From Fibrobacter sp. UWH6 (GTDB lineage Bacteria; Fibrobacterota; Fibrobacteria; Fibrobacterales; Fibrobacteraceae): 53,252 nucleotides of DNA. Where the stretch lies: the NCBI RefSeq assembly GCF_900142465.1, contig NZ_FRAX01000021.1:1-53252 (forward strand). The letters run 5' to 3'. Below, piece after piece: positions 1,082 through 47,097 of this stretch. The notes under the pieces were generated by a model that saw only the letters and a program-made list of their open reading frames with translations, had not been told where the DNA came from and ran no database searches. Made by a program: the position numbers and the translations under genes. Every line of letters starts with the position of its first letter. Position 1 is the stretch's first letter.

Positions 1082-1516
1082 TTATTTCACGCCAGTGCTG
1101 CCGAAGCCGCCGCGGTCCTTGTCGGAGAGTTCGCCTTCCTCAAATTCCAGAGTAGGCTGGATTTCCATAATGCGGAACTGGGCAATGCGGGAGCCCTTCT
1201 CAATGGTCACGTCTTCGGTGGCATAGACCGGCATTTTCCACCAGTCGTTTGCGCCGCAATAGCTGGAGTCCACCACGCCAACAGAATTGGTCTGCAGAAT
1301 CTTGAAGTTCTTGAAGGTGGAGCTGCGGGGGGCCAGATGGGCTTCATACCCCTCGGGCAATTTCATAGCCACCCCCAAATGAATCAGGCGAAACTCCCCC
1401 TTCTTCAGGGTAACGGTTTCCGCGGCGCTCAAGTCGATCCAGTCGGACTTACCGCCCACATATTCCAGACGAGGAATGGAATCATCAAGATATTGGATGG
1501 TGATTTTCATTGCCAT
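1082..1516 (-). CDS. dut: dUTP diphosphatase (dUTPase)
   Basis: Hydrolyses dUTP to dUMP and pyrophosphate, keeping uracil out of DNA and supplying dUMP for thymidylate synthesis. At 144 residues it has the normal size of a trimeric dUTPase. Conserved motifs are visible in order: PRSS (residues 68-71), the uracil-binding hairpin beginning GVVDSSYCGAND (about 80-91), and the C-terminal Gly-rich arm RGGFGSTG that closes over the nucleotide. The start ATG at 1516 gives MAMKI; a second in-frame ATG lies two codons on. The ribosome site is weak. The 303-base stretch upstream holds three copies of a 37-bp inverted-repeat module (see the entry at 1540), the nearest ending 23 bases before the start codon. 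The gene is a single unit convergent with the lipoprotein gene. Confidence 0.95.
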   Translation of the reverse strand: MAMKITIQYLDDSIPRLEYVGGKSDWIDLSAAETVTLKKGEFRLIHLGVAMKLPEGYEAHLAPRSSTFKNFKILQTNSVGVVDSSYCGANDWWKMPVYATEDVTIEKGSRIAQFRIMEIQPTLEFEEGELSDKDRGGFGSTGVK

Positions 1517-1539: not shown

Positions 1540-1788
1540 GGTTACTATTTCCAAGTCAACAACCCATTTAGTAACCCATTTATTACTTTATTTTCAAAAA
1601 GATTGTGCTTTTTTCAAATTCTTTTTCTTGACAAGGTTACTAAACGCATTATTTACAGCAATTTAGTAACCTCTAGAACAGAATTTACAGCAATTTAGTA
1701 ACCTCTAGAACAGAAATTTCGCCCCAAAAGCATTACTTTATTTAAAACCAAGGTTACTAAAAGGGCTCAAAACCTCCGTTTAGTAACC
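1540..1788. repeat. Cluster of inverted 10-mer modules upstream of dut
   Basis: GGTTACTAAA and its complement TTTAGTAACC occur seven times in 250 bases: forward at 1540 (last two bases differ), 1635 and 1752; reverse at 1567, 1662, 1694 and 1779. Each forward copy is followed by a reverse copy exactly 27 bases later, giving three 37-bp modules of the form 10-N17-10, with unrelated N17 sequences. The fourth reverse copy comes from a perfect 32-bp tandem duplication (1651-1682 and 1683-1714). The string ATTACTTTATTT also recurs at 1582 and 1731. The cluster fills the gap between dut and the TrmJ-like gene. The arms have no T-tract, so operator sites are more likely than terminators; the binding protein is unknown. 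Confidence 0.85.
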
Positions 1789-1819: not shown

Positions 1820-2635
1820 TTACCCGGCCTTTCCTTCTTCGGCAGCAGCCTTAGTTTCTTCAGCTTCGGCGGCGGCCTTTGCGGCAGCGGCCTTTGCAGC
1901 GCGGTCTTCGGCCTGTTCCAGGCGAGCGGGCTTACCGGCTACATTACGGAGCAAACCGAACAGGGCCGAAAGTTCGTTGCGGGTGGGGTGTAGTCTCTGG
2001 AGCAGAGTGTTCAGGAAGTTATCTCTCCAGGCCTGATCATGATACTGACCGGTGAGATAGCGGTCCAGGAACTTCTTGAATCCGTTAATCTGGTCGATGG
2101 TTGCGGGCTGAGTTTCGCAGGCTCCCTTGGAACCACGCTTGGCGCGGCCTTCACCGTTTGCCAAGGCACCAGAACGGCACAGTTCATACAAAGAAATAGA
2201 AACAGCCTGACCCAAGTTCAAGCTCATCAAGCCCGGTACGGGAATTTCGCACTGGTAGGTGCAAGCGTTCACTTCTTCAAGAGCCAGGCCGCAGGATTCA
2301 CGACCGAACACCAGAGCGATGGTTCCATCATCAGGAAGCATGCCCGACAGATCGGGAACCATGCAATGCTTAATAGCACTACCGAAAATGCGACGGCTGA
2401 AAGCGACTGCACAGGAGCAATCCCCAATAGCTTCGCGGAAGGTATGAACGATGGTTGCCTTGTCCAGAATGTCATGGCTGTTGGCTGCCGTGTGGTAGGA
2501 ATTTTCAATCACCTTGTTACGCTTGGGGTAAACGATGTACAGTTCATCCAGGGCGTAGCAATGCATGGCGCGGGCTACGAAGCCAACGTTGTGAGGATGT
2601 TCCGGTTCAACAAGCACTACTCTAAACTTTCTCAT
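1820..2635 (-). CDS. trmJ: TrmJ-like tRNA 2'-O-methyltransferase (SpoU/TrmH family)
   Basis: Likely methylates the ribose 2'-OH of a nucleotide in the tRNA anticodon loop (position 32 in known TrmJ) using S-adenosylmethionine. The SPOUT trefoil-knot motifs are clear: the N-terminal VEPEHPHNVGFVARAM (motif 1, conserved Asn and Arg), LVFGRESCGL (motif 2, about residues 108-117) and SLNLGQAVSISLYEL (motif 3). A helical C-terminal part follows. The last 30 residues are an Ala/Lys/Glu-rich tail not needed by the family fold. The ATG start at 2635 matches the usual family N-terminus. It lies 87 bases downstream of the nucleotidyltransferase on the same strand. The symbol is by family resemblance; TrmL or another SpoU member is possible. 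Confidence 0.8.
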   Translation of the reverse strand: MRKFRVVLVEPEHPHNVGFVARAMHCYALDELYIVYPKRNKVIENSYHTAANSHDILDKATIVHTFREAIGDCSCAVAFSRRIFGSAIKHCMVPDLSGMLPDDGTIALVFGRESCGLALEEVNACTYQCEIPVPGLMSLNLGQAVSISLYELCRSGALANGEGRAKRGSKGACETQPATIDQINGFKKFLDRYLTGQYHDQAWRDNFLNTLLQRLHPTRNELSALFGLLRNVAGKPARLEQAEDRAAKAAAAKAAAEAEETKAAAEEGKAG

Positions 2636-46883: not shown

Positions 46884-46932
46884 AAAGGCGGTGGAAATAC
46901 CTTTTATAGGGTCAATCCACCGCCTTTCTTTT
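46884..46932. terminator. Terminator of alr
   Basis: AAAGGCGGTGGA and TCCACCGCCTTT pair perfectly over 12 bases around a 20-base loop, followed by CTTTTAG. Confidence 0.8.
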
Positions 46933-47048
46933 AGTTTATCCGTGTAAAAGGCATAAAAAAGAGGATTTTCGCTTCTATTTTTTCAAAAAGAAGGAGATTT
47001 TCTTCAACATCAAGTGCGTTTTGCAGGAAAATTCACATACAACATAAC

Positions 47049-47097
47049 AAAAAGGCGGTTAAAAATCCTTTTTAAAGGAAAAAGCACTGCCTTTTTT
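47049..47097. terminator. Second hairpin before ogt
   Basis: AAAAAGGCGGT pairs with ACTGCCTTTTT (one mismatch), with an inner palindrome TCCTTTTTAAAGGA. It resembles the alr terminator in its AAAAAGGCGGT arm. The 116 bases between the two hairpins hold no open frame; an independent small RNA ending here is possible. Confidence 0.5.

Follow-up and report, generated by a model that had tools for sequence, protein, structure and literature searches.

Dispersed, helically phased palindromic elements and their candidate nuclease-like partners in Fibrobacter

What is the role of a cluster of palindromes in the gap between dut and a trmJ-like gene of Fibrobacter sp. UWH6? The cluster lies near one end of a 53,252-nucleotide contig (NZ_FRAX01000021.1, referred to here as the window, i.e. 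the whole stretch of DNA that was analysed), where six exact copies of one arm sequence are found at 1567(-), 1635(+), 1662(-), 1694(-), 1752(+) and 1779(-). A preliminary description had seen in them three identical modules that would suit a dimeric or looping regulator, or a nucleotide-stress operator of dut.

The element is built of three 37-bp palindromes, each with 10-bp arms and 17 intervening bases (N17) with an A/T centre (Table 1). Two of the modules described as identical are exact (1635-1671 and 1752-1788), whereas the third (1540-1576) has the arm GGTTACTATT, with 2 mismatches. The offset between arm starts is 27 bp in all three, as had been noted, and their spacers are indeed unrelated in sequence, yet all have the A/T-rich centre seen in other family members. 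The extra arm at 1694 likewise proved to derive from a tandem duplication of 32 bp (about three helical turns), with identical copies at 1651-1682 and 1683-1714. Because of this duplication the element is 249 bp long instead of the usual ~217 bp; its module distances, 95 and 117 bp, equal 95 + 85 bp plus the duplicated 32 bp. A search of the whole genome of this strain (G000), in which the gap could take any length from 5 to 30 bases, gave 10 modules, and in every one of them the arms were separated by exactly 17 bases. The reversed pattern, used as a control, gave 0 modules, thus the pattern is not due to chance. With up to 3 mismatches allowed, there were 18 modules in this genome versus 0 for the control. 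The geometry (27-bp offset, helically phased modules) suits a multimeric protein that reads inverted half-sites, in keeping with the regulator first envisaged.

Table 1. Features of the two elements in the window and of the genes that border the first
Feature	Position	Strand	Remarks
Module 1	1540..1576	.	GGTTACTATT-N17-TTTAGTAACC; left arm with 2 mismatches
W linker motif	1582..1593	+	ATTACTTTATTT; 6 bp past module 1; same strand as the W preceding module 3
Module 2	1635..1671	.	exact GGTTACTAAA-N17-TTTAGTAACC; 95 bp from module 1
32-bp unit, two exact tandem copies	1651..1714	.	yields extra arm 1694-1703
Second W motif	1732..1743	+	ATTACTTTATTT; precedes module 3
Module 3	1752..1788	.	exact GGTTACTAAA-N17-TTTAGTAACC; 117 bp (85 + 32) from module 2
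dut (dUTPase)	1082..1516	-	neighbour gene
trmJ-like RNA methyltransferase gene	1820..2635	-	neighbour gene on the opposite side of the element from dut
Second element, module	46888..46923	.	GCGGTGGAAA-N16-; right arm diverged; between alr and ogt
Second element, W-like motif	46930..46939	+	TTTAGTTTAT
Second element, degenerate last module	47055..47091	.	GCGGTTAAAA...

The genome-wide pattern search, suggested earlier as a test of the operator, found the same element at unrelated intergenic loci: G000 has six intergenic GGTTACTAAA elements, none at a locus related to another. Conservation upstream of dut is also absent in close relatives. The trmJ-dut gap has no element in four genomes (G011, G030, G032 and G040) and contains unrelated elements of other arm classes in G031, G033-G036 and G028; those of G031 and G035 cannot be aligned with each other and are oppositely oriented, between flanks that are 87-93% identical. 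The TTGACT taken as a possible -35 box of dut sits inside a spacer, and nothing was found to speak for that role. Although the element ends only 24 bp ahead of the dut start codon in G000, its many copies at unrelated loci and the empty or differently occupied gaps of close relatives leave a dut-specific operator with almost no probability; the window element is not a control switch for dut.

The same architecture recurs throughout the genus. Among 105 clusters in Fibrobacter, 67 have three modules, and every one of the 158 distances of 60-130 bp between adjacent modules is 74, 84-86, 94-96, 105-107 or 117 bp, a strong periodicity (R = 0.957) at 10.5 bp. A pattern-free scan of 1.36 Mb, which uses no knowledge of the arm sequence, gave 179 hits at phased spacings versus 1 at control spacings. 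Almost every element in the species with TGNTACCAAA arms (G066, G069) has distances of 85 and 95 bp and an overall length of 217 bp. Scans with N17 overlook arm classes with N16 and N18 and therefore undercount the family; G046, for example, seemed free of elements until its gene of the family described below revealed an N16 class. Many of the genomes compared are metagenome-assembled (MAGs).

The spacer centre is an A/T run of five, most pronounced in the TGNTACCAAA class. A linker motif follows the first module (consensus TTACTTTGT) and precedes the third (TTAATTTAT), and, since it is on a single strand, the elements have a direction. The outer flanks carry T-runs and GCG and are loosely inverted (TTTTgCG..). 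Pairing is in excess at arm position 3 (55 seen, 37 expected), which leaves room for hairpin-based processes. The elements matched no family in Rfam, and an RNA-structure reading was rejected on this ground and because helical phasing and strand symmetry speak for duplex DNA. All 65 elements with known neighbours are intergenic (the adjoining genes are tandem in 35 cases, convergent in 19 and divergent in 11), and one further call falls inside an unconvincing 131-bp ORF. Their distance and orientation relative to neighbouring genes vary, and the neighbours are not consistent.

More than 20 arm classes are found in Fibrobacter, including GGTTACTAAA, GGGTAC[CT]AAA, TGNTACCAAA, GGRCTCCAAA, TACCTATAAA, ACGTACTAAA and GTGACTAAA; they differ both between and within genomes. 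G000 has at least 6 GGRCTCCAAA elements besides those of the GGTTACTAAA class, and the window itself holds, at 46888-47091, a partly decayed element of another class (GCGGTGGAAA, N16). A single genome-wide motif evolving in concert was rejected, as several classes coexist in one genome.

Beside many of these elements is a gene of one uncharacterised protein family, with matches in 50 of 80 genomes of the genus. The protein, about 280-285 residues long, is helical in its N-terminal part and has a PD-(D/E)XK nuclease-like domain at the C-terminus, with the motif RSKSE...PY.YE...PDFT...WEH.G (alignment A1). No Pfam or NCBIfam family scored above cut-off, and seven members submitted to Pfam also lacked a Y1_Tnp match. 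The C-terminus matches the PADLOC candidate PDC-S68 (E 8.6e-22 to 8.1e-30), though only at profile positions ~1095-1220 of ~1220, in proteins of 285-347 residues. A structure model built from three sequences (mean pLDDT 79) had TnsA (1f1z) as its nearest solved fold in VIA-align, with Z 8.2 over 119 residues at 3.8 A, a score close to the background usually obtained; Bax1, Vsr, XisH and Holliday-junction resolvases ranked below TnsA. Foldseek found no match for the model at E 0.001, and a sequence search of solved structures found no relative of the family. The PD-(D/E)XK-like domain and its conserved acidic residues suggest an enzyme. Matches among phage and plasmid proteins are few and mostly to the nuclease domain alone.

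The cognate gene of the window class (GGTTACTAAA) is located at G000:C27:22520-23566. In this gene (L017, 5027-6070) an insertion of ~60 residues separates conserved blocks of the nuclease-like domain and is not present in the shorter G033 ortholog, at G033:C103:31843-32706. An in-frame TGA interrupts the TGTCACTAAA-class gene of three species (L300, L301 and L302, from G032, G031 and G034), perhaps an old shared pseudogene.

Genes and elements are closely paired. A phased-palindrome element lies within 620 bp of 48 of the 53 distinct family genes analysed with their flanks, compared with 1 of 400 control windows; 39 of these elements are upstream and 15 downstream of the gene, some genes having both. 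A 49th gene (L090) has an array beside it with a spacing outside that pairing scan, and four others (L263, L315, L326 and L340) had no element by any method used. Where elements occur on both sides of a gene they are direct repeats, of 300 bp at 94.7% identity in G040 and of 253 bp at 90.9% around the GCGGTGGAAA-class gene of G000 (C2:20236-21081, L319). For GGTTACTAAA, GGRCTCCAAA, TGNTACCAAA, TACCTATAAA, ACGTACTAAA, ACTAACCAAA and GCGGTGGAAA, the genome also carries dispersed elements of the class that adjoins the gene, and for several classes solo copies away from the gene were confirmed. Likewise, the genomes with genes beside GGTTACTAAA, GGRCTCCAAA, GGGTAC[CT]AAA and TGNTACCAAA elements carry those classes, and G066 has family genes of its own for TACCTATAAA and ACGTACTAAA, as G028 has for GTGACTAAA.

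Proteins with similar arms group together. Protein distance correlates with arm distance (r = 0.62, 0 of 2000 permutations as high), also after dereplication to 29 (r = 0.35, 0 of 2000), a relationship that indicates co-divergence and not binding, because related proteins have in common not only their arms but also their ancestry. Some genomes contain T-type elements and no detected family gene (e.g., G042 and G075); these are possibly relics, or the genomes incomplete. Among the few elements available, arm intactness did not differ between genomes with and without a detected cognate gene, and the simplest test of the idea that the protein maintains the arms failed, as arm decay was not relaxed where no gene was detected.

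Within a genome, non-homologous loci align only from about -13 to +231 of the element, and it follows that the element itself was copied. Younger duplicates are 79-84% identical. In 17 orthologous pairs, the proportion of differing positions was 5.2% in arms, 14.7% in spacers, 13.8% in linkers and 19.6% in outer flanks, so that arms change ~2.5 times more slowly than spacers (Fisher p = 5e-15). Simulated neutral change, passed through the same detection filter, gave an expectation of 12.0% in arms, compared with the 5.2% observed, and the arms are thus under selection where they sit. Direct element pairs flank accessory genes (L158, L164, L172, L160 and L236), which suggests that cargo can travel between direct copies or that recombination between copies reshuffles neighbours. 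Across 78 elements, mostly old copies, no excess of target-site duplication was seen at any junction beyond conserved T-runs. No DNA similar to the elements was found on plasmids, and scans of viral contigs gave scattered single modules and partial relatives.

The explanation that we favour, and hold to be probable, is that the window site is one copy of a dispersed element family in which each arm class has a cognate nuclease-like gene, a two-part system similar to RAYT-REPIN. In each element, three 37-bp palindromes on the same side of the helix would serve as a platform. The cognate protein is predicted to bind both arms of each module as a dimer, and three dimers might assemble on the phased modules. 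The protein would act in trans on every copy of its class, and could occasionally copy or move an element into intergenic DNA, along with any genes that lie between two direct copies. The data establish the architecture with its helical phasing, the dispersal, the pairing of genes with elements, the co-variation of proteins and arms and the conservation of the arms; we infer that the protein binds these sites, has nuclease activity and is the cause of their mobility. Against this explanation stand the selection on arms at fixed sites, which exceeds what is expected of a purely selfish repeat, the lack of a target-site duplication among 78 mostly old copies, the equally intact arms in genomes with and without a detected cognate gene (few elements), the four family genes that have no element, the genomes with T-type elements in which no family gene was detected, and the weak structural match. 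The elements seem to belong to a type of small DNA, mobile or genome-organising, that has not been described before. A bolder claim, towards which we are evenly disposed with a slight leaning to doubt, is that a protein of the PD-(D/E)XK family, and not a DDE, HUH, tyrosine or serine recombinase, recognises and spreads triple phased palindromes, with cargo between direct copies, as a class of mobile DNA not described before. In Fibrobacter such a class would include over 20 specificities that have diverged from one another; at least one more would occur in a rumen Lachnospiraceae and share the GCTACCAAA arm core.

The selection on arms could also be read differently. The elements might be fixed chromosome-organising or regulatory sites, selected platforms for a nuclease-like protein that serves as a site-specific DNA-binding (nucleoid or regulatory) protein, their mobility being incidental and old. 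The arms and spacing kept at orthologous sites, the exact 85/95 architecture of nearly all G066 and G069 copies, the intergenic placement throughout and the separate gene for each class are what such sites would be expected to show. However, close species differ in occupancy and classes replace one another at a single site, copies within one genome are alike only inside the element bounds, gene neighbours, distance and orientation are inconsistent, and the acidic residues conserved in the PD-(D/E)XK-like domain point to an enzyme. We therefore regard this as unlikely, if still deserving of attention.

The accessory genes between direct pairs would be accounted for if the elements were crossover sites between which circular cassettes integrate, as with attC. 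The trpS element of two species bears on this (L259 7791-8071 versus L263 4500-4219): it is 99% identical to 20 bp past the first module and 73% identical beyond. The trpS protein of the same two species is 100% identical and the adjoining outer-membrane-like protein 53%, so the recombination boundary falls inside the element. This chimera had been considered proof of site-specific recombination, which was withdrawn, as an ordinary homologous-recombination tract suits it equally. With no gene for a site-specific recombinase tied to the elements in an unsystematic look, and with elements that are mostly solo and outside arrays, a cassette-boundary system seems improbable. A defence or addiction role, in which the nuclease attacks DNA and the genomic elements mark self or keep the enzyme inactive, would fit the match to a candidate defence family and the many diverged specificities per genome, but is very improbable given that the match covers only the last ~120 of ~1220 residues, that elements dispersed singly are too few for dense marking of a genome, and that no linked immunity gene was seen.

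The two-part system that we favour is closest to RAYT-REPIN among known systems. Each type of RAYT (REP-associated tyrosine transposase) gene is single-copy and flanked by REPs, and palindromic doublets are dispersed in the genome (PMC3116915). As in RAYT-REPIN (PMC3116915, PMC2817692), each repeat class in Fibrobacter has its own enzyme gene with class-specific palindromes in the gene flanks, the palindromic copies are dispersed and mostly extragenic, and several classes occur per genome. In contrast, RAYT is an HUH Y1 transposase whereas the Fibrobacter protein has a PD-(D/E)XK-like domain; a REPIN is an inverted REP doublet whereas the Fibrobacter unit is three helically phased 37-bp palindromes; and the Fibrobacter arms are conserved in place between species. 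If the shared logic is weighed as decisive, the system could be read as a variant of RAYT-REPIN.

MITEs and other non-autonomous IS derivatives are also short, dispersed and non-coding, with sharp ends and a cognate gene that is sometimes bracketed by copies. The Fibrobacter gene, however, is flanked by long direct (LTR-like) copies and not inverted ones, no target duplication was found (78 elements, mostly old copies), an internal third module and the spacing are under selection, and no DDE transposase is tied to the elements. To our knowledge, the PD-(D/E)XK enzyme fold does not mobilise repeats on its own. Integron attC sites resemble the elements in their diversity, in palindromes whose arms are conserved and whose centres vary, and in the genes found between direct copies, but the Fibrobacter elements are three phased palindromes, mostly solo and dispersed, and an unsystematic look tied no integrase to them. 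Tn3-family res sites and TIMEs (PMC4133298) are a further comparison. A res site has three inverted-repeat subsites, helically set and of unequal length, about 28, 34 and 25 bp. The elements share the three helically set subsites, but the Fibrobacter modules are equal, 37 bp long and 74-106 bp apart, and no resolvase was noticed with them in an unsystematic look. TnsA of Tn7 may share the PD-(D/E)XK fold of the C-terminal domain, a weak structural match (Z 8.2), but no TnsB or TnsC partner was seen beside the Fibrobacter gene. PADLOC PDC-S68 has in common the C-terminal nuclease domain detected by HMM; only the last ~120 residues match and the N-terminal part of the Fibrobacter protein is different. 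No earlier description of the elements was found in open-access literature text; they are considered new only on the strength of searches in databases and in such text, and of an enzyme and DNA unrelated to those of the nearest analogue.

If true, this would extend by one the short list of enzymes paired with dispersed DNA (RAYT-REPIN, transposase-MITE and integrase-attC). More than 20 protein-arm pairs would offer a readable recognition code, whose co-variation makes specificity directly testable. The system would also provide a practical assay for the old question of why some bacterial repeats persist for long at fixed sites.

Related sequences occur outside the genus. In a MAG of a rumen Lachnospiraceae, GGCTACCAAA palindromes form intergenic arrays that repeat every 74 bp, or 7 helical turns (L090 895-1500, L091 3027-3560 and L082 1434-1550). 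The arms are nearly identical to those of a Fibrobacter class, and the gene beside one array is a relative of the genes beside Fibrobacter elements; transfer between phyla is possible. Single GGCTACCAAA-N17-TTTGGTAGCC modules with a spacer in common are present on three contigs of a Thiothrix MAG and, with a related single module in another gammaproteobacterial MAG, form a separate repeat (L069, L074, L088 and L089). Several Fibrobacter genomes also carry a dispersed repeat, GTTTACTAACCACTAAATTCATTCCTGTTTACTAACC, that is unrelated to the elements (L035, L037, L044 and L046-L048).
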